IMG/VR virus record: IMGVR_UViG_3300030012_002033 | Span: 1-29,982 of that record | Length of the DNA: 29,982 bases | Strand: one strand, 5' to 3' | Source: a virus | In this document: one piece after another, positions 1,370 through 15,893 of the stretch | How positions within the stretch are numbered: position 1 is the stretch's first letter | How the letters are laid out: each line of letters starts with the position of its first letter | Notes under the pieces: generated by a model | The model's database searches: none | What the model saw: the letters and a program-made list of their open reading frames with translations, nothing else | What the model was told of the DNA's origin: nothing | Made by a program: the position numbers and the translations under genes

Positions 1370-2103
1370 TAGGGGATGTAGAAGGAGGCGTTTCTCCATT
1401 TAAAATATTTGGTAAACGTAGAAAAGGAGGCACTAAGGTAAAAAGAAAAGCTACTAAGACAGCTAAAAGACGTGGTGGTTTTAGTAAATCTACTAAAAGT
1501 AAAAATATACCTGGCTTTAACAGGCAAACTAGATTTAGTTACAAGCCAAGAGCTGGCTCACCAGCACCAACATCACCTTCTCCACCAGTTGTAACGAGTG
1601 TAGGACCAGGTGGACAACCTGTAATAAACATCGATATAAGTGATTTAGTAGATTTAAACGTAGCTAATGCAGTTTCTACTGGATCACCTTCACCGTTTGA
1701 AGAAGTAATTGAAGAAGAAACAATAACAACGGAAAACAAAGAGATGTCTGGTATAACATCGATAGAACAATACTATGACAAATATAAAAAGCTACCTAAA
1801 TACGAAGAGGTTTGGAAATATAATTTAACATACAAAGATTACGGAAAAACAAGAGATAGATTTGATACTTTTGAAGATTACGTAAGAGCTGCAAACGCGG
1901 ACTGGAAAGGTGGTAGAGTTGAAAGTATTAGCGAATTAGGAGAAAGATCTAAAGGCTCTTTCAAAGAAACTAAATCAGAGAGCTCATCAAGTTCAACTAC
2001 AACTAGATCTAAGAGAACAATAAAAGGAGGAAATAATAATAATAACAAGGACAACAAAATAACTATAAACCAAAAAATTAAAAACAACAACAATGGCATT
2101 TAA
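1366..2103 (+). CDS. Basic, low-complexity hypothetical protein coupled to MAFK cluster
   Basis: A 245-residue protein starting MIGDVEGGVSPFKIFGKRRK. It lacks the MAFK start but has an SPFK sequence near the N-terminus. Residues about 17-60 are a strongly basic, Gly/Lys/Arg/Thr-rich DNA- or RNA-binding-type segment. A Pro-rich stretch follows (about 63-80), then VINIDISDLVDLNVANAV (about 86-103), which resembles the C-terminal motif of the upstream protein. The middle (about 130-185) is Tyr/Lys/Trp-rich and possibly folded; the end is poly-Ser/Thr and poly-Asn. The start overlaps the upstream stop by 4 nt and the end overlaps the next gene by 11 nt. Function unknown. Confidence 0.65.
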   Translation: MIGDVEGGVSPFKIFGKRRKGGTKVKRKATKTAKRRGGFSKSTKSKNIPGFNRQTRFSYKPRAGSPAPTSPSPPVVTSVGPGGQPVINIDISDLVDLNVANAVSTGSPSPFEEVIEEETITTENKEMSGITSIEQYYDKYKKLPKYEEVWKYNLTYKDYGKTRDRFDTFEDYVRAANADWKGGRVESISELGERSKGSFKETKSESSSSSTTTRSKRTIKGGNNNNNKDNKITINQKIKNNNNGI

Positions 2104-3034
2104 ACTACCAGGCAAATCAATGATAAGTGGCTCAGCACCACATAGATCTGCCTTAAAAATGAAAAAAGAGTCCATGGCAAAAATGAAGACCATGGCAAAA
2201 ATGAAAAAAGAGTCGATGGCTAAAATGAAGTCACCGATGAAAGGAGCTTATGAAGACGCTTTGAAAAAAGACGCTAATCTACCAGAGTACATAAAACAAA
2301 GAAGAGCGTTAAAAAAGGCTAATCCAGATGGTTATAAAACTTCTAAGGAGTACGCTAAAATTCAAAACAAAATAAATGCTGCTTACGGTGTAAGCAAGCG
2401 TTATGACGAAGGATCAACGCCTAGAGTAACTAAAACAGTAGACAAGAATATTAATAAAAGTAAAACAGTAACTAGAAAAGACGGTACTGTTAAGAGAACT
2501 GTAGACAAAAACGTTACTGTAAAAGATGGTGAAAAAACAAAGACTAGAACTGTAAAAAAGTTTGACAAAGAAGGTGATTTAAAAAAGACTAGAACAGTAA
2601 CTAGAGGAGGCGGAGAACGTAATGTAAAAGTAACTGATGCAGAAGGAAAAGTTACTAAAGACAGAACTAGAAAAACTATAGGTGGTAGACTTAAAAATAT
2701 TTTTAAGAAAAAAGATAGATCACCTGCTACAATGAAGAAAGAGTCTATGGCTAAGATGAAGAAGCCTATGAAAATGAAAGAGCCAATGAAAATGAAAGAG
2801 CCAATGAAAATGAAAAAAGAATCTATGGCTAAGATGAAGAAAGAAGGGGCAATGAAAATGAAGAAAGAAAGCGCTATGAAAATGAAAAAAGAAGGTGCTA
2901 TGAAAATGAAAAAGGCGCCTAATAAATTTAATGCTAAACTAAAAGCTGCTTCTGCTGCTGGTAAGTTAAGCGGTAAGTTTAAAGAAGCTGTAGATGCTGC
3001 TCCAGTTAAGATGAAAAAGAAAATGAAAAAATAG
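2093..3034 (+). CDS. MAFK-tag, Met/Lys-repeat polycationic protein
   Basis: A 313-residue, extremely basic protein. It opens with MAFKLPGKSMISGSAPHRS and runs into Met/Lys repeats (residues 23-50, KKESMAKMK units). A mixed segment (51-110) follows, then a Thr/Val/Lys/Arg repeat region (about 112-190) with alternating RTV/KTV and DG turns that suggests a beta-repeat. A second, longer Met/Lys array (about 214-274, units such as MKMKKE and MKMKEP) and a Lys/Ala-rich tail complete it. No catalytic motif is visible. The charge suggests DNA or polyanion binding, for example condensing packaged DNA or filling the capsid as an internal protein. The tag links it to the other MAFK proteins. Confidence 0.75.
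   Translation: MAFKLPGKSMISGSAPHRSALKMKKESMAKMKTMAKMKKESMAKMKSPMKGAYEDALKKDANLPEYIKQRRALKKANPDGYKTSKEYAKIQNKINAAYGVSKRYDEGSTPRVTKTVDKNINKSKTVTRKDGTVKRTVDKNVTVKDGEKTKTRTVKKFDKEGDLKKTRTVTRGGGERNVKVTDAEGKVTKDRTRKTIGGRLKNIFKKKDRSPATMKKESMAKMKKPMKMKEPMKMKEPMKMKKESMAKMKKEGAMKMKKESAMKMKKEGAMKMKKAPNKFNAKLKAASAAGKLSGKFKEAVDAAPVKMKKKMKK
2159..2242 (+). repeat. Met/Lys coding repeat, N-terminal array
   Basis: Within the polycationic protein, ATG/AAA/AAG-rich units encode KKESMAKMK-type peptides (residues 23-50). Sequence matches the C-terminal array, so it is also a site for recombination within the gene. Confidence 0.7.
2732..2914 (+). repeat. Met/Lys coding repeat, C-terminal array
   Basis: Near-tandem units encode MKKESMAK, MKMKEP and MKMKKE peptides (residues about 214-274). 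Several neighbouring units are almost identical at DNA level, which suggests recent expansion by slippage or unequal recombination. Confidence 0.75.
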
Positions 3035-3398: not shown

Positions 3399-4964
3399 AT
3401 GGAATACAATTTACCTAGCGAAATTGTCAAAGACTTAAACTTTGGCGATAACGCAAAACAAAAAATTATTGCTGGCGTAAGTAAGCTAGCCCAAGCCGTA
3501 AAATCCACATTAGGCGCAAGCGGTAAGTGCGTTATATACGAAGATGGACGCGGTAAACCGGTTATCACAAAAGACGGAGTAACAGTCGCAGAATCTGTTG
3601 TCTTGTTTGACCCGGTTGAAAACATGGGTGCTACGCTTATTAAAGAAGCAGCTAGAAATACAGTGAAAGAAGCAGGTGACGGTACTACTACAGCTACCGT
3701 CCTTGCTGAAGCACTAATAAAACATATTAACCACGAACAAACTCACGGTGTTTCTACTAGAGAAATAAAAGAAGGTATTGCTTCTGGTTTAAAAAAAGTA
3801 AACGATTATCTTGACTCTATTAAAATAGAAGTAAAAGATAATATGTTAGACAATGTCGCTACTATTAGCTGTAACAACGATGGAGAGCTAGGCGCTATTA
3901 TAGCAGATGCTTATAAAAAAGTTGGTAACGACGGCGTTGTTTTAATGGAAACTTCAGATACTGACGAAACTTATGTTGATATAGTTGACGGAGTTCAAAT
4001 TGACTGTGGATTAACATCACCGCATTTTGTCACTGATACAGACAAACAACGTGCAGTGCTTGAAAATCCATTAATTTTAATAGTACAATCAGAAATACCT
4101 AATATTAGAAAAATACAAAATGTATTAGAGTTTGTTATTAAAAATAATAAATCACTTTTAATTGTAGCTCCGGTTAGTCAACAAGTAAAAGCAGCTTTAT
4201 TAATGAACAAAGTAAAAGGTAATATTAAAATAAACATTATAGATTTACCAGGCTTTGGTCCTACTAAAAATGATACAGTAAAAGATTTAGCTTTATTAAC
4301 TAATGCCATTGTTATAAATGAAGAGCTAGGTGATGACTTAGACTCTATATCGTTAGATGTTTTAGGTGAAGTTGAAAAAGTAGTGACTGATGATAATAAT
4401 ACTGTTATAACGTTACAAGAAATAACTAAAGATGTTAAAGATCGTATAAAAGAAGTTAAAAAATTACTTAAAAAAGAAAAGAACGGTTTTTTAAAAAAAT
4501 TTTTAGAACAAAGAATAGCTATGCTTTCTGGTAGTGTAGGTGTTATAAAAGTTGGCGCTAGCTCAAAAGTAGAGTTAAAAGAAAAGAAAGATAGAGTTGA
4601 AGATGCGATATATGCTACTAAAGCCGCTTTGAAAGAAGGTATAGTACCAGGCGGTGGTATTGCTTTGTTAAACGCATCAGAAAGATTACCATCTGAAAAT
4701 ACAGGTGAATCAATACTTTTCGACGCTATTAAATCTCCCTACAAAACTATATTGTCTAACGCTGGTATAGAGCCAACTGAAGAGCTAGCTAGTGGCAATG
4801 GAATAAACGTTATAACTGGCGAAGAAGTTGATATGGTTAAAGCAGGTATAATAGATCCTGTACTTGTAACTAAAAAAGCACTTAAAAATTCCGTTTCTGT
4901 TGTAACTACTATTATATCCGCTGATTGTGTAATATCAAATATAAGAGTCAATGAAGGCAGTTAA
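3399..4964 (+). CDS. groEL: Phage-encoded chaperonin GroEL (60 kDa, group I)
   Basis: A 521-residue protein reading as GroEL through its whole length; the ATP-driven double ring folds proteins in a closed cavity. Visible signatures: the nucleotide-site loop TLGASGK (37-43, canonical TLGPKGR), ITKDGVTVA (56-64), GDGTTTATVLA (93-103, including the catalytic-domain Asp), VEDAIYATKAA with Asp at 402, and VPGGGIALL (416 on). The apical domain keeps the order of the family (CGLTSPHF, IPNIRKI, LPGFG). It is shorter than the usual about 545 residues mainly because the C-terminal Gly-Met tail is absent; it ends IRVNEGS. Its end overlaps groES by 14 nt. Likely clients are phage capsid or tail proteins (inference). 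A leader of TTAAAT repeats precedes the ATG. Confidence 0.95.
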   Translation: MEYNLPSEIVKDLNFGDNAKQKIIAGVSKLAQAVKSTLGASGKCVIYEDGRGKPVITKDGVTVAESVVLFDPVENMGATLIKEAARNTVKEAGDGTTTATVLAEALIKHINHEQTHGVSTREIKEGIASGLKKVNDYLDSIKIEVKDNMLDNVATISCNNDGELGAIIADAYKKVGNDGVVLMETSDTDETYVDIVDGVQIDCGLTSPHFVTDTDKQRAVLENPLILIVQSEIPNIRKIQNVLEFVIKNNKSLLIVAPVSQQVKAALLMNKVKGNIKINIIDLPGFGPTKNDTVKDLALLTNAIVINEELGDDLDSISLDVLGEVEKVVTDDNNTVITLQEITKDVKDRIKEVKKLLKKEKNGFLKKFLEQRIAMLSGSVGVIKVGASSKVELKEKKDRVEDAIYATKAALKEGIVPGGGIALLNASERLPSENTGESILFDAIKSPYKTILSNAGIEPTEELASGNGINVITGEEVDMVKAGIIDPVLVTKKALKNSVSVVTTIISADCVISNIRVNEGS

Positions 4965-5208
4965 TTATTACATAATTATAGAGCAGATAAAAGAAGGACC
5001 TAAAAAAGTAGGTAGCCTTATACTAACAGACGATGTCAACGAAGATAATAGATATTTAAAAGGTAAAGTTGTATCTATTGGTAATAATGTCGAAGGTATA
5101 AAAGAAAACGATGTTATATACTACGACAAGCACGCAGGCCACGGTATACAACATAAAGATAAATTTTACGGCGTTATAAAACAACAAGACGTCGTACTTA
5201 TAGATTAG
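4951..5208 (+). CDS. groES: Phage-encoded co-chaperonin GroES
   Basis: An 85-residue GroES-type lid protein, slightly shorter than the usual about 95. It follows and overlaps groEL by 14 nt, reversing the usual bacterial order (groES then groEL). Residues about 15-33 match the mobile loop, with the hydrophobic tripeptide LIL (23-25) in GSLILTDD at the position of the GroEL-binding IVL. Then GKVVSIGNN (38-46), ENDVIYYDKHAG (52-63) and a final strand DVVLID follow the family pattern. The pair should form a GroEL cap dedicated to the phage chaperonin or able to work with the host one. A gap of about 75 nt separates it from the next gene. Confidence 0.9.
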   Translation: MKAVNYYIIIEQIKEGPKKVGSLILTDDVNEDNRYLKGKVVSIGNNVEGIKENDVIYYDKHAGHGIQHKDKFYGVIKQQDVVLID

Positions 5209-5282
5209 ACCTAAACCATAAACTAAAACCTTAAACTTATAACATTAAATTAACCTAATTATTAACTTTTAAAACTAAAAAA

Positions 5283-5660
5283 ATGGCTTTAAACAAAGTA
5301 ATGTTGTATTTTGCAGAAAATGAATCTGCAGATGCAGAAGCAGATGCGCTATGTGTTCCAGCTGAAAGTGTGATAGGTATTCACCCAACAGCTGCTACTA
5401 CTTGTAACATTTACTTCAAAAACACTAGAGTAGTTGAAGGTACTGATGCTAACGCAGCTTTCAACTATGTACAGTTAACTTATACTTCTGGTAAATTTAA
5501 AGAAGTAGCTGAAGCAGTAACTGGTGCGATGAACGGTGCGCCTGTTATTAACAGTGGTTTTGTTGTTATCGCTGATCAAGACAATGATAAGTACGTTCAC
5601 AGTGCTATCAACAACGTTGAGATTGCGTTTAATGATAATGACGTTGATCCTACTAACTAA
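5283..5660 (+). CDS. Probable virion protein, beta-rich (125 aa)
   Basis: A 125-residue acidic, Ala/Val/Asn-rich protein starting MALNKVMLYFAENESADAEA. Alternating hydrophobic stretches (VIGIHPT, CNIYFKNTRVV, FNYVQLTYTSGK, SGFVVIADQ, NNVEIAFNDND) indicate a small all-beta or beta-sandwich fold, as in phage capsid decoration or minor head proteins. It has its own AT-rich leader (ACTTTTAAAACTAAAAAA) and a tandem stop (TAA TAA), both consistent with strong independent expression. No family was recognised, and the structural role is an inference from composition and position. Confidence 0.65.
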   Translation: MALNKVMLYFAENESADAEADALCVPAESVIGIHPTAATTCNIYFKNTRVVEGTDANAAFNYVQLTYTSGKFKEVAEAVTGAMNGAPVINSGFVVIADQDNDKYVHSAINNVEIAFNDNDVDPTN

Positions 5661-6105: not shown

Positions 6106-6507
6106 ATGGCATTTAAAATGAAAGGCCCGTCACTATTAAAAATGGTATCGGCATTAAAGAAGAAAGGTGATCCTTACACTAAAGAAGATTATGATTTTTT
6201 AAAAGAGCAAAGAGAAGAAAGAGTTACTTCTATGGACTATTTATCTAAGATACCTAGAGGGCCAGTTGAAACAGAAAGTAAAAAAGGCAATGTTCAAAAG
6301 TTTAAAGAAAAGAATAAACAATACGTGGACAAAGACAAGACTACACCTTTGTCACCTGGTTATGAAGACACTAAAAAAATACAAAGAGTACAAAGAGAAG
6401 GTTTAATACCTAGCTCTCAAAACTTTGATAAAAAAATAAAAAAGCTTAAAAGACCAGATCAAGCTAAATTTAGTGATTTAGAAAAATCAGACGACGATAG
6501 AGGATAA
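6106..6507 (+). CDS. MAFK-tag family protein, 133 aa, charged
   Basis: The protein starts MAFKMKGPSLLKMVSALKKKGDPY, so the tag continues into an amphipathic helix (about 8-20). The rest is very hydrophilic and probably extended or helical, with Lys/Glu/Asp/Gln-rich stretches, the sequence KIPRGPVETESKKGN (about 48-62), and a Lys-rich segment (KKIKKLKRPDQ). It ends with DLEKSDDDRG. No catalytic motif is visible. It is flanked 1 nt upstream by the winged-helix gene and 11 nt downstream by another MAFK gene. Possible virion cargo or internal protein; function unknown. Confidence 0.65.
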   Translation: MAFKMKGPSLLKMVSALKKKGDPYTKEDYDFLKEQREERVTSMDYLSKIPRGPVETESKKGNVQKFKEKNKQYVDKDKTTPLSPGYEDTKKIQRVQREGLIPSSQNFDKKIKKLKRPDQAKFSDLEKSDDDRG

Positions 6508-6518
6508 AATTTATAATT

Positions 6519-6911
6519 ATGGCATTTAAATTAGGTAGTAAAAAAAATAATAGAGCTCCACTTTCTTTTAAAAAAGAAACTGATGAAATACCAGGCACAC
6601 CTATATTTCGTAAAAACTTAGGTAAAGGAATAATGGGTGAAGCTAATAATGATGGTACTATATTTTTAAATAAAGACGTACCAAAAGGTAGCGATTTAGA
6701 AGCCCACGTATTATTACACGAGATGCAACACATGACCGACATGAAGCTTGGTAAATTAAAATATGACGACAACTCTATAACCTGGAACGGTGAAACATAC
6801 GAAAGAAAAGACGGTAAAGTTTTTTTTGAAGGTGAGTTTAAGCCAGAAGGCGATAAATCATTTCCATGGGAAAAAATGCCTTGGGAAGCTAAATATAAAA
6901 ATAAAAAATGA
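6519..6911 (+). CDS. MAFK-tag small zinc metallopeptidase-like protein (HExxH)
   Basis: A 130-residue protein with the tag MAFKLGSKKNNRAPLSFKKE followed by a compact domain. Residues 67-71 are HEMQH, the HExxH zinc-peptidase signature, in a helix (LEAHVLLHEMQHMTDMKLGK). A strand-type segment precedes it (GEANNDGTIFLNKD). The C-terminus has PWEKMPWEAKY (116-126), where Glu123 could be the third zinc ligand as in gluzincins, though this is unproven. Known HExxH families hydrolyse peptides. Here it could process capsid proteins, act after ejection, or help lysis. Its stop overlaps the holin start by 4 nt (ATGA). Confidence 0.65.
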   Translation: MAFKLGSKKNNRAPLSFKKETDEIPGTPIFRKNLGKGIMGEANNDGTIFLNKDVPKGSDLEAHVLLHEMQHMTDMKLGKLKYDDNSITWNGETYERKDGKVFFEGEFKPEGDKSFPWEKMPWEAKYKNKK

Positions 6912-7300
6912 GTATATTAGGTAAAATATTTTCAAGCGGAGCTAATGAATTAGTAAAAGGTGTAGGTGGTGTAATAGACGAACTACATACTTCAAAAGAA
7001 GAGAAGCTTGAAGCAGAAAGAAAAATAAAAGATATGATAATGGGTTACGAAGCTAACATGCAACAGCAAGTGACTAAAAGATGGAAAGTTGATATGGCTT
7101 CTGATTCTTGGTTATCAAAAAATATAAGGCCTTTAGTTCTTATATTCTTAGTAGTATCAACGGTATTAATGATATTTATTGATGCTGGTGTTATTGCTTT
7201 TGAAGTAAAAGACACTTGGGTAGACTTATTACAATTAGTATTAATAACTGTGATCGGTGCTTATTTTGGCGGTAGATCACTAGAAAAAGTAAAAAAATAA
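6908..7300 (+). CDS. Holin-like membrane protein
   Basis: A 130-residue protein. The N-terminal half is a charged helix (about 12-64). Two hydrophobic segments follow: PLVLIFLVVSTVLMIFIDAG (75-94) and WVDLLQLVLITVIGAYFG (104-121). It ends in basic GGRSLEKVKK. The amphipathic N-terminal helix, the motif SWLSKNIRPLVL and the GGRSLEKV end resemble the family of three-TM-type holins (Pfam GTA_holin_3TM class). Holins open the inner membrane at the end of the cycle so endolysin can reach the wall. It is coupled to the HExxH gene by a 4-nt overlap. No endolysin was found in this window. Confidence 0.75.
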   Translation: MSILGKIFSSGANELVKGVGGVIDELHTSKEEKLEAERKIKDMIMGYEANMQQQVTKRWKVDMASDSWLSKNIRPLVLIFLVVSTVLMIFIDAGVIAFEVKDTWVDLLQLVLITVIGAYFGGRSLEKVKK

Positions 7301-9167: not shown

Positions 9168-9239
9168 ATGTGTCCTTGTCCAGTGTGTATAATAACAGCT
9201 GTGTTGATATTTTTAGGTTTAAAAAAAGTTAAAAAATGA
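9168..9239 (+). CDS. Cys-rich single-membrane-segment microprotein, 23 aa
   Basis: A 23-residue frame encodes a peptide starting MCPCPVC, followed by a hydrophobic stretch IITAVLIFLGL (8-18) and a Lys-rich end (KKVKK). It has CxCxxC-type cysteines at 2, 4 and 7, one membrane-spanning-size segment and a positive tail. Its ATG is 1 nt after the upstream stop and its TGA overlaps the next ATG (ATGA at 9236-9239), a coupling pattern that argues it is translated. Length is well under usual gene-finder limits. Function unknown; candidates are a metal- or disulfide-linked membrane peptide or a lysis/superinfection factor. Confidence 0.6.
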   Translation: MCPCPVCIITAVLIFLGLKKVKK

Positions 9240-9850
9240 AAGCACCTTTTGACTTTGTTATAGAGCCAAAAGGTAACAGATACAACAATACCAAAAAAGT
9301 TGGTGATAAAAATTTAATACTTAATACTGAAAATTTTAATCACGAGTTTGTAAATAGAAAAGCTATTGTTAAGTCTGTACCTACAGCTTATGATACTAAA
9401 ATAAAAGTTGGCGACACGGTGATAGTTCATCACAATGTTTTTAGAAGATGGCTTAATGCTAAAGGAATAGAAAAAAATAGCAGAAGTTACTTTGATGAAA
9501 ATACATATCTTGTAAAGCCAGATCAAATATTTTTATACAAAAGACCACAGCCTTGGAGTAGATTTAAAGAAGGTCAATGGCAAGCTACAGAAGGATATTG
9601 CTTCGTGCAACCAATAAAGCAAAGAGACAAACTAAAACTAGAAGAAGAAGAACAGTGTATAGGTATAGTTAAATATACTGATGGTACTAACAATATTGAA
9701 GACCTTGTAGGTTTTACACCTTTTTCAACTTATGAGTTTATTATAGACGGAAAACGTTTGTATAGAGTTATGAATAAATTTATTACAATTAAATATGAAT
9801 ATCAAGGAAACGAAGAAGCTTATAATCCAAGCTGGGCAGAAAGCAGTTGA
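9236..9850 (+). CDS. Double GroES-like-fold protein
   Basis: A 204-residue protein that reads as two GroES-like halves. Half 1 (about 1-103): FDFVIEP, a mobile-loop-like NLILNT (26-31), RKAIVKSVP (41-49), IKVGDTVIVHHN (56-67; compare VKVGDIVIF of GroES) and a final strand YLVKPDQIFLYK. Half 2 (about 119-190): GYCFVQPIKQ, QCIGIVKYT, DLVGFTPFSTYEFIIDGKRLYRV (156-178) and ITIKYEY. The C-terminus is EEAYNPSWAESS. It is distinct from the ordinary groES at 4951. The start overlaps the microprotein stop and the end overlaps the next gene by 56 nt, placing it in the packaging cluster. It could be a specialised chaperonin cap or a structural protein that reuses this fold. Confidence 0.6.
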   Translation: MKAPFDFVIEPKGNRYNNTKKVGDKNLILNTENFNHEFVNRKAIVKSVPTAYDTKIKVGDTVIVHHNVFRRWLNAKGIEKNSRSYFDENTYLVKPDQIFLYKRPQPWSRFKEGQWQATEGYCFVQPIKQRDKLKLEEEEQCIGIVKYTDGTNNIEDLVGFTPFSTYEFIIDGKRLYRVMNKFITIKYEYQGNEEAYNPSWAESS

Positions 9851-10073
9851 AGAACTAATTAACGTCGCAAAAGAAAAGATTATTACAAATACAGAAGACG
9901 ATGTTTCTGCTGATAGACTGAAGAATGCTGCGGCTACTAAAAAACTAGCAATATTTGACGCGTTTGAAATACTTAACAGAATACAAGAAGAAAAAAACTT
10001 GCTTGAGGGCAAAACACCTGAAAAGACAGAGAAAAAAGCTTTTAAAGGATTCGCAGAAGGTAGATCTAAGTAA
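9795..10073 (+). CDS. Possible small terminase-type protein (helical, 92 aa)
   Basis: A 92-residue helical protein starting MNIKETKKLIIQAGQKAVEE. It contains long amphipathic helices (about 3-28 and 36-72, the latter with RLKNAAATKKLAIFDAFEILNRIQEEKNLLEG) and a basic C-terminus KGFAEGRSK. It begins inside the previous gene (56-nt overlap) and its stop shares one base with the TerL start (TAATG). Position directly before TerL suggests a small terminase subunit or packaging accessory, but no helix-turn-helix is obvious, so the assignment is by context. Confidence 0.5.
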   Translation: MNIKETKKLIIQAGQKAVEELINVAKEKIITNTEDDVSADRLKNAAATKKLAIFDAFEILNRIQEEKNLLEGKTPEKTEKKAFKGFAEGRSK

Positions 10074-12289
10074 TGTACAAGCAAAGTTTAGTTAAGGTAG
10101 TAGAGCCTGTAAAAAGAACAACTTTAACACGTATGAATCGTGGTAAAAAGTGGAAGTATGGTTATAACAAAGAGTTTGATTTAATTGTATTATCTCACAA
10201 TGGTGTAATAGGAGAAATAATAGAGATACAAAATTTAACTATAGCATTACCCAAACCTCCAAAACAAATATACAAACACTCAACTAATAAGTGGTTTAAA
10301 CAAGAATATCCAAAAGAACTTAGTAGAATTAAAAATATATTTGATTGGAGAGCTTATCCTGAAGAGCAAAAAGATAAGTGGTACGATTATATAAACGAAG
10401 AGTTTAAACGTCGTGAAGAAGGCTTTTGGTTTATTAACAATAGTAAACCAACTTATATAACGGGTAGTCACTATATGTACTTACAATGGAGTAAAATAGA
10501 TGTAGGTGCACCTGACTTTAGAGAAGCAAATCGTTTGTTTTATATATTTTGGGAAGCTTGCAAAGCTGATAAAAGATGTTATGGTATGTGTTACCTTAAA
10601 AATAGACGTAGTGGCTTTAGTTTCATGTCATCAGCAGAAACAGTTAATTTAGCTACAATATCAAGTGATAGTAGATATGGTATATTATCAAAATCAGGTG
10701 CAGATGCTAAAAAAATGTTTACAGACAAAGTTGTGCCAATATCGGTCAACTACCCTTTCTTTTTTAAACCGATACAAGATGGTATGGATAGACCTAAGTC
10801 TGAGCTTGCTTATCGTGTACCTGCGAGTAAGTTTACGCGTAAAAAAATTACTGCAAACGAACAGCAAGAAGACTTGGTTGGACTTGATACTACTATTGAT
10901 TGGAAAAACACAGGTGACAATAGTTATGATGGAGAAAAGCTTAATTTATTAGTACACGACGAAAGCGGTAAATGGGAGAGGCCTGATAATATTTTAAACA
11001 ACTGGCGAGTAACAAAAACTTGTTTACGATTAGGTGCTAGAGTTGTTGGTAAGTGTATGATGGGTAGTACTAGTAATTCACTAGATAAAGGTGGTGATAA
11101 CTTTAAAAAATTATACTATGATTCAAACGTTACAAAAAGAAATCGTAATGGACAAACAAAGTCTGGTTTATATTCTCTTTTTATCCCAATGGAATGGAAC
11201 TATGAAGGATTTATTGATGAATACGGACAACCAGTATTTCATATCCCAGATAATGATGTACACGGACCAGACGGTGAATTAATAGATTATGGTATTATTG
11301 ATCATTGGAACAATGAAGCTGAAGGTTTAAAAAACGATCAAGATGCACTAAACGAGTTTTACAGACAGTTTCCACGTACTGAAGAGCATGCGTTTAGAGA
11401 TGAAGCTAAAAACAGTATATTTAATTTAGTAAAAATATACGAACAAATAGATTACAACGATGGCGTAGGTAATCAAGGAAATATAACCACGGGTAATTTT
11501 CAGTGGGTTAACGGAATAAAAGATACACAAGTTATATTTTACCCAGATCCAAAAGGTAGATTTAATATAAGTTGGACGCCGCAGTCTCATCTTCAAAACA
11601 GGGTGGTACTTAAAAACGGTATTAAATATCCTGGTAACGAACACATGGGTGCCTTTGGTTGTGATAGTTACGATATATCAGGAACTGTAGATGGTAGAGG
11701 TTCTAATGGTGCTTTACACGGTTTAACAAAGTTTAGCATGGAAGATGCACCACCTAATCACATGTTCTTAGAATACATAGCTAGACCACAAACTGCTGAG
11801 ATATTTTTTGAAGATGTATTAATGGCTTGTGTGTTTTACGGTATGCCAATATTAGCAGAGAACAATAAACCTAGATTACTATACCATTTTAGACGTAGAG
11901 GCTACAGAGGATTTAGTATGAATAGACCTGATAAAATTTGGAACAAGTTATCTGTAACAGAAAAAGAAATAGGTGGTATACCTAACTCAAGTGAAGATAT
12001 AAAACAAGCTCATGCTGCTGCTATTGAAATGTACATACAACAACATGTTGGTCATTTAAAAGACGGCGTTTATGGTAATATATATTTTAACAAAACTTTA
12101 AACGATTGGGCTAAGTTTGATATAACTAAAAGAACAAAATTTGACGCTACTATAAGTAGTGGATTAGCGATTATGGCTTGCAATAGAAATTTGTATAAGC
12201 CTAACGCTAAAATAGAAAAACCAAAATTAAATATAAGTATAGCTAAGTTTAACAACAAAGGCAATGCTTCAAGAATAATAAAAAATTAA
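10073..12289 (+). CDS. terL: Terminase large subunit (packaging motor)
   Basis: A 738-residue terminase-like protein: an ATPase that drives DNA into the prohead and a nuclease that cuts the concatemer. The ATPase half contains LKNRRSGFS (about 175-183) in the Walker-A place, lacking the canonical GKT/S, and LLVHDES (292-298) as Walker B with Asp296/Glu297. The nuclease half has GCDSYD (529-534) and later conserved-looking stretches (FEDVLMACVFYGMPILAENN; FRRRGYRGFSMNRPD). The N-terminal region is rich in Trp/Tyr (FKRREEGFWFINNSKPTYI). It follows the small gene with one shared base and precedes the portal by 1 nt, the usual phage order. Confidence 0.85.
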   Translation: MYKQSLVKVVEPVKRTTLTRMNRGKKWKYGYNKEFDLIVLSHNGVIGEIIEIQNLTIALPKPPKQIYKHSTNKWFKQEYPKELSRIKNIFDWRAYPEEQKDKWYDYINEEFKRREEGFWFINNSKPTYITGSHYMYLQWSKIDVGAPDFREANRLFYIFWEACKADKRCYGMCYLKNRRSGFSFMSSAETVNLATISSDSRYGILSKSGADAKKMFTDKVVPISVNYPFFFKPIQDGMDRPKSELAYRVPASKFTRKKITANEQQEDLVGLDTTIDWKNTGDNSYDGEKLNLLVHDESGKWERPDNILNNWRVTKTCLRLGARVVGKCMMGSTSNSLDKGGDNFKKLYYDSNVTKRNRNGQTKSGLYSLFIPMEWNYEGFIDEYGQPVFHIPDNDVHGPDGELIDYGIIDHWNNEAEGLKNDQDALNEFYRQFPRTEEHAFRDEAKNSIFNLVKIYEQIDYNDGVGNQGNITTGNFQWVNGIKDTQVIFYPDPKGRFNISWTPQSHLQNRVVLKNGIKYPGNEHMGAFGCDSYDISGTVDGRGSNGALHGLTKFSMEDAPPNHMFLEYIARPQTAEIFFEDVLMACVFYGMPILAENNKPRLLYHFRRRGYRGFSMNRPDKIWNKLSVTEKEIGGIPNSSEDIKQAHAAAIEMYIQQHVGHLKDGVYGNIYFNKTLNDWAKFDITKRTKFDATISSGLAIMACNRNLYKPNAKIEKPKLNISIAKFNNKGNASRIIKN

Positions 12290-14681: not shown

Positions 14682-15893
14682 ATGGCTAAAAAAAGCAAAA
14701 AAGAAACAACTGAAGAAGTTGTTGAAGAAATTAAAAACGATAAAGACGTTGTTAAAGTAAACTTAGATGAGTCATCTGAAGAGTTTATTGAAGACAATGT
14801 TATAAAAGTAGATTTAAGTAAACCACCAAAAATAAAAGAAGATGCCGTTCAGGAGCAAAGCACAGATGAGGTTTCTTTACGCGACGAACCCAAAGCTAGC
14901 GAAGAAATACTCGAAGAAAACGTCGAAACAACAAATGAAGAACCTACCGGAGAAAGTACCGTTCAAGATGAGCAATCCGTTGTTGAAGAAGTAACAAACG
15001 AACAAGCTGAAGAGTTAGAGCAAGAAGCTGTTGAAGCTATTGTTGAAGCTGAGCAAACTGGAACGCCGCTTCCAGAAAACATACAAAAGCTTGTTGATTT
15101 TATGGAAGAAACAGGTGGTGATATTAATGATTACGTAAAGTTAAATCAAGATTATTCTGATATGGATAATCATACACTGTTGCACGAGTATTACAAACAA
15201 ACAAAACCTCATTTATCTAATGAAGAAATAGATTTTGTTATGGAAGATACTTTTGCTTATGACGAAGAAGAAGACAGTGAAAAAGAAATAAAAAGAAAAA
15301 AATTAGCTATGAAGGAGCAAGTTGCTCAAGCAAAGCAACACTTGGAAAGTGTAAAATCCAAATACTATGAAGATATTAAAGCTGGAAGTAGATTAACTGA
15401 AGAACAACAGAAAGCAATTAATTTCTTCAATAGATACAACAAGGAATCAGAACAAAATCGTTTAAAAAGCGAAGAGCAAATTCAAGTCTTTAAAAACAAA
15501 ACAAATCAAATCTTCAATAAAAATTTCAAAGGTTTTGAATATAACGTTGGAGAAAAGAAGTTTAGATTTAACGTAAAAGACGCTGAAAAAGTAAAAGAGA
15601 GCCAAGCAGACATTAACAACTTCATCAAAAAGTTTTTGACAGAAGATAATTTAATAGACGATGCTAAAGGTTATCACAAAGGACTTTTTACAGCTATGAA
15701 TCCAGATCAAATAGCAACACATTTTTACGAGCAAGGCAAAGCTGACGCTTTAAAAGAAAGCATTGCTAAATCTAAAAATGTTAGCATGGATCCAAGACAG
15801 TCACACGTTGAAAATGTAAACACCAGTGGTTTTAAAGCTAGAGTGTTAAACGATGATGGACCTGATTTTAAGTTTAGAATTAAAAGAAAATAA
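14682..15893 (+). CDS. Capsid scaffold-like protein
   Basis: A 403-residue protein between portal and major capsid genes. The first about 210 residues are strongly acidic and Glu-rich (EEVVEEIKNDKD, EELEQEAVEAIVEAE) with long helices. A Lys/Gln coiled-coil part follows (about 205-280) and the very C-terminus is basic (FKFRIKRK). An acidic helical body with a basic tail that grips the coat is the classical scaffold design, for example P22. It has Lys-rich MAKKSKK at its start. The role follows from gene order and composition; no sequence family was recognised. Confidence 0.7.
   Translation: MAKKSKKETTEEVVEEIKNDKDVVKVNLDESSEEFIEDNVIKVDLSKPPKIKEDAVQEQSTDEVSLRDEPKASEEILEENVETTNEEPTGESTVQDEQSVVEEVTNEQAEELEQEAVEAIVEAEQTGTPLPENIQKLVDFMEETGGDINDYVKLNQDYSDMDNHTLLHEYYKQTKPHLSNEEIDFVMEDTFAYDEEEDSEKEIKRKKLAMKEQVAQAKQHLESVKSKYYEDIKAGSRLTEEQQKAINFFNRYNKESEQNRLKSEEQIQVFKNKTNQIFNKNFKGFEYNVGEKKFRFNVKDAEKVKESQADINNFIKKFLTEDNLIDDAKGYHKGLFTAMNPDQIATHFYEQGKADALKESIAKSKNVSMDPRQSHVENVNTSGFKARVLNDDGPDFKFRIKRK

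Follow-up and report, generated by a model that had tools for sequence, protein, structure and literature searches.

The window analysed here is the whole of IMG/VR record IMGVR_UViG_3300030012_002033, 29,982 bases of viral DNA that carry no completeness estimate. It is probably a fragment of about 30 kb, since its relatives are 60-78 kb long. Its terminase and portal genes make it kin to the Flavobacterium phage elemo, the Cellulophaga phage phi38:1 and the Maribacter phage Panino, and the lineage is defined by the terminase large subunit (10073-12289, forward strand; PHROG 6681, E = 4e-171). Phage phi38:1 belongs to the marine Bacteroidetes phages of "group 2", which bear groEL (PMC5332604); the window phage appears to resemble this group. 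Phages of the group are described as abundant in the oceans (PMC7198788). The majority of the small genes in them lack explanation.

The window encodes its own chaperonins, a phage groEL (3399-4964; Cpn60_TCP1, E = 9e-56) and a groES recognized from its position and sequence (4951-5208), both on the forward strand. A second GroES-like protein (9236-9850; PHROG 13932, E = 2e-15) lies shortly ahead of the terminase, a place it holds throughout the lineage. Between the portal and capsid genes is an acidic protein of 403 residues (14682-15893), the probable scaffold by P22-like gene order. A PADLOC search gave no match.

The feature of main concern is an open reading frame on the forward strand at 6519-6911. 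It encodes a tagged, minimal metallopeptidase-like protein of 130 residues, here called the zincin. Its N-terminus reads MAFKLGSKK, of which MAFKLGS (6519-6539) is the tag. A linker of about 20 residues follows, with LSFK at residues 16-19. The motif HEMQH (residues 67-71; 6717-6731) would form the active-site helix, and two short PWE motifs stand near the C-terminus. The TGA of this gene overlaps by 4 nt the ATG of a holin-like gene (6908-7300, forward strand; PHROG 3427 holin, E = 2e-32), whose match to Pfam GTA_holin_3TM (2e-4) is slightly below the Pfam cut-off. An earlier, sequence-only reading had described such a MAFK-tagged protein with HEMQH and a stop overlapping a holin start, and this arrangement is confirmed.

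Conservation and predicted fold of the zincin

Homologues of the zincin are common in IMG/VR. A first scan found 40, and a profile scan extended the family to 519 stretches. In 33 close relatives the HExxH motif shows no variation, nor does Glu118 (6870-6872), which stands in FPWE, the first of the two PWE motifs. In a diverse alignment of 36 sequences with 25-80% identity, the only invariant columns are H67, E68, H71 and E118. Untagged homologues from isolate phages, both T4-like and jumbo, retain all four of these residues. HExxH followed by a distal conserved glutamate, the pattern of the gluzincins, is thus found across all 36 diverse sequences. The motif is kept by essentially all homologues and is therefore not a chance occurrence; the one exception (L234) reads EEDNH and may be degenerate.

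These residues indicate that the gene is of a conserved, minimal metallopeptidase type, as had been proposed; its product may bind zinc and cut proteins. The third zinc ligand is another matter. The sequence-only reading had offered Glu123 (6885-6887), in the second motif PWEA (residues 121-124, with WEA at 122-124). The alignments rule this residue out: its position is Asp in one relative (L027) and Gly in another (L029), and is missing from clades that end in LPWEFKD or FPWEQH. Because Glu118 is invariant, unlike Glu123, it is the likely third ligand.

Two AlphaFold2 models of the zincin have mean pLDDT values of 75.9 and 77.5. Residues 1-20, with pLDDT of about 40-50, are probably disordered. 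The remainder is modelled as short strands, a helix at residues 59-77 and beta hairpins ahead of Glu118. Structure prediction had been suggested as a check on the motif, and in the models both histidines lie on that one helix.

Searches with the window's zincin against Pfam give weak results. The scores for M90 and M91 (14.5 and 15.1 bits) are below the cut-offs of 26.2 and 25, other members of the family being weak as well, and there is no match to the S77 or S78 prohead serine proteases. Bacterial genomes were also scanned by pattern, and none of the 56 matches is a relative.

The N-terminal tag and its lineage

The tag, M-A-[FY]-K-[ML]-x-G, is not peculiar to the zincin. It heads more than 50 otherwise unrelated protein families in the phi38:1-like lineage. 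In loci that were not selected by the tag, 161 tagged proteins other than the zincin form about 58 families when compared without the tag. The tag is found on 6.3% of the other open reading frames in zincin-positive loci, where composition would predict 0.23%, and zincin-negative relatives have almost no tagged proteins. Among the zincins themselves, 126 of 137 distinct homologues start with M[AGP]FK[ML]. The tag is the chief finding here, and the weight that the sequence-only reading had placed on it as an informative feature is supported.

Four further tagged genes are found on the forward strand of the window. A basic protein with MAFKMKG (6106-6507) is encoded directly upstream of the zincin, and two small proteins, one with MAYKMKY...FPFK (738-965) and one with MAFKMKY...FPFKSPMK (968-1369), are encoded near the start of the window. 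The fourth (2093-3034) starts with MAFKLPGK and is a lysine-rich protein of MAKMKKE/MKMKKE repeats with one SPMK; it resembles a basic DNA-condensing internal protein.

What tagged proteins have in common beyond the tag is limited. In an alignment of 109 tagged-family representatives, a set that is larger than the 58 families and was in part chosen through the tag, nothing is conserved but MAFKMKG and a weak SPxK. The latter occurs within the first 60 residues of 34% of tagged proteins and of 3.5% of others. Some zincins and other tagged proteins have a second block in common, FKMKY...FPFK (the window genes at 738 and 968; L399 and L403), an indication that the tag can be exchanged as a module. 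In the isolate homologues the N-terminal region is longer than in the zincin and the tag is lacking, so the tag is a module added to the zincin.

Matches to known proteins are few. Ten long tagged proteins compared with PHROGs gave no match, and one of the 109 representatives matches a "virion structural protein" family (E = 1.2e-6). The tag was not found on the capsid, portal and scaffold candidates, no isolate phage with the tag was seen, and the papers searched mention no FKMKG tag. In phage elemo, a gene beside the portal gene that is annotated as a structural protein (L095:23810-24829) has the start MFKMKLEG, which resembles the tag. It is the sole tag-like start counted among zincin-negative isolate relatives.

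A second sample consisted of contigs picked solely because their DNA encodes MAFKMKG. The window-type terminase is present in 24 of the 25 long contigs of this sample, and the zincin in 19. In the five zincin-negative members of the lineage, the terminase gene is only about 0.3-4.6 kb from the contig end on its upstream side, and the region of the zincin is therefore missing from these contigs. Alone among the tagged proteins, the zincin is present in nearly all members of the lineage, and it is kept by each genome examined that is complete enough; it appears to be core to the lineage, with the other tagged proteins varying. Co-occurrence of tag and zincin was dropped as independent evidence, since all 24 contigs belong to one terminase lineage and so do not prove a functional link. 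One contig of 120 kb (G027, also L296), with MAFKMKG DNA and neither a window-type terminase nor a zincin, represents either a chance occurrence or another lineage with the tag.

The holin neighbour and the question of lysis

An overlapping holin gene invites the idea that the zincin is an enzyme or accessory of lysis. It would be released via the neighbouring holin and would cut cell-wall peptides or envelope proteins late in infection. In the nearest relatives the zincin is indeed 0-2 genes upstream of the holin gene (144 loci have both). The 4-nt overlap itself is unusual, being found in 3 of 126 distinct zincin-holin pairs. About a quarter of these pairs are adjacent and most others are separated by no more than two genes or by a short gap, with at least one intervening gene in about half.

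The association is not conserved among more remote relatives. Of 20 divergent ones, at least 7 have the zincin away from the holin, while all 20 keep the MAFK tag. It is upstream of groEL in five loci (L389, L394, L396, L397 and L400) and in another module in two (L391 and L402), adjoining a PhoH-like gene in the former. The coupling, on which the sequence-only reading had drawn for a lysis role, is thus a poor guide to function. Members of the holin family are also found in unrelated phages of Vibrio and Nonlabens, and in one locus (L122) a different HExxH protein, of 131 residues and with HELIHH, is encoded a few nucleotides upstream of a gene of this family (5131-5526).

That reading had also made the zincin a candidate for a missing endolysin. 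The idea was reasonable, because in isolate relatives a conventional endolysin gene precedes the terminase and the window has none. Moreover, 19 of 33 long zincin-positive contigs have no tested endolysin family; most of these are fragments, though three exceed 64 kb. Searches for Amidase_3 and M15_4 found nothing, as did one for GH108 that had no positive control. In two contigs (G022 and G039) the zincin is 2-3 kb from an Amidase_2 gene.

As a general rule, a sole endolysin is nevertheless ruled out by endolysin genes elsewhere in zincin-positive contigs. Peptidase_M15_3 is present in 9 of the 14 long contigs of the first sets and in 2 of 19 further ones (G029 and G031), and Amidase_2 in 3 of the latter (G022, G026 and G039), so that at least 14 of the 33 encode one or the other. 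The window, for its part, is a fragment. The zincin would thus not be the lineage's only cell-wall enzyme, nor is it regularly paired with a holin. It has no apparent cell-wall-binding domain or signal peptide, and phages with untagged homologues, such as Melnitz, carry separate genes for GH108 or a cell wall hydrolase. Given the endolysins elsewhere and the holin proximity lost in divergent relatives, a role in lysis is highly doubtful.

Possible roles of the tagged protease

The tag suggests a signal for sorting into the virus particle rather than a function in cell lysis. The reading preferred here, tentatively, is that the zincin is a tag-sorted protease of the prohead or virion. In this model, a gluzincin-type minimal protease, with three short strands, one HExxH helix and the distal Glu118 near the C-terminus, is joined to the N-terminal tag by a basic disordered linker. 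The tag would act as a capsid-targeting sequence and bring the protease and the small lysine-rich proteins together in the prohead or virion. While the head matures, the protease would cut tagged or scaffold proteins packaged with it, or else it would be carried into the next host. The model is favoured because the pattern of tagging resembles that of the T4 internal proteins and because zincins occur in packaged or injected phage proteins. A core protease with variable cargo would fit an enzyme in the service of the tag system, for instance one that cuts tagged proteins.

A narrower proposal makes the zincin a protease of prohead maturation, one that takes off the tag or clears the scaffold. 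It would be the metalloprotease equivalent of gp21 in T4 and would act on the tagged proteins. The presence of the zincin in nearly all members of the lineage, as other tagged families vary, fits this, and a search of 20 relatives for an S78 prohead protease found none. A search for S77 was also negative, although it had no positive control. No conserved cleavage site emerged: SPxK is enriched in tagged proteins but may be a binding motif. In addition, P22-like heads mature without a protease. Since the portal and the gene order here are P22-like, the head may need no maturation protease, which also counts against the packaging model in general. A dedicated maturase is unlikely. T4 offers a model for it, since its internal proteins, once packaged, are cleaved from their targeting tag (PMC7697877). 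A fuller version has MAFKxxG as a capsid-targeting tag with no relation to the T4 one, and has the prohead mature through cleavage of tagged internal proteins by the tagged minimal metalloprotease; it is distinctly improbable. If true, it would mean head maturation by a metalloprotease rather than a serine protease.

Alternately, the zincin may act in the cytoplasm, as a protease similar to IrrE or SprT that cuts a regulatory or DNA-bound protein of host or phage. The tag would then serve folding, solubility or binding, for instance to the phage GroEL. Zincins of the SprT and IrrE/PprI types are among the fold matches, one untagged homologue is annotated ImmA/IrrE, and a groEL gene is present in the window as well as in several tagged relatives. 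The phages elemo, Panino and ctfjg026 encode GroEL too, but have no MAFK-type tag. That dozens of small basic proteins bear one and the same tag also fits co-localization better than individual regulation, and a cytoplasmic role is considered somewhat unlikely.

Sorting into the particle, the preferred reading, would matter beyond the zincin. A single tag that ties dozens of unexplained families to a core protease gives them a common property that can be tested, namely presence in the virion. If confirmed, the MAFK tag would be a new encapsidation tag.

Comparison with known systems

The nearest phage families of the zincin are PHROG 10499 and PHROG 16532, both with function unassigned. Profile matches to them have E values of 1e-8 to 1e-4, with divergent members reaching 4.5e-9; PHROG 16532 is matched by 32 of 33 close members, at best with 2.9e-6. 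A tblastn search of isolate phages with the window zincin gave no match, and a divergent member bridged the gap, with E = 2e-4 to 3e-5 to Melnitz and OC. The phages of these families are Xanthomonas XacN1, Tenacibaculum pT24, Ochrobactrum OC and Methylophilales Melnitz. Their proteins share HExxH ... W.GK.Y ... PWExEA with the zincin; they differ in being longer (140-190 residues), with a longer N-terminal region and no MAFK tag.

Among proteins of known structure, the best fold matches are the minigluzincins, with zincins of the SprT and IrrE/PprI types close by. Foldseek gives a probability of 0.97, yet modest E values of 0.1-0.4, and structural alignment gives Z scores from 5.2 (rmsd 4.6, 76 residues aligned) to 5.7 (rmsd 3.6, 65 aligned). 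When the 36-sequence profile was run against all PDB chains, selecase was the sole match (E = 2.2e-4, over the strands and HExxH). The minigluzincins, selecase (MJ1213; 4qhf-4qhj), abylysin (4jiu) and jannalysin (4jix), are likewise about 100-130 residues long and, as in the models of the zincin, consist of strands followed by an HExxH helix. In contrast to the zincin, they are archaeal and untagged, and the significant sequence match is limited to the strands and the HExxH helix. The zincin is also modelled with beta hairpins between HExxH and the PWE glutamate and without an N-terminal helix.

The closest parallel for the tag is the set of T4 internal proteins, which have only an N-terminal targeting sequence of about 10 residues in common (PMC3012670, PMC7697877). 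This sequence can encapsidate almost any protein (PMC7697877, PMC3012670). In both systems, one short N-terminal sequence is found on otherwise unrelated small basic proteins, here on about 58 families. The sequence of the tag is different, its role in encapsidation is putative, and the tagged set here includes a metalloprotease.

For the protease, a comparable case is the zincin-like MPTase domain of polyvalent proteins, where a zincin core likewise occurs in packaged or injected phage proteins (PMC5512222). Those domains are fused in large multidomain proteins, whereas here the zincin is a stand-alone, minimal domain.
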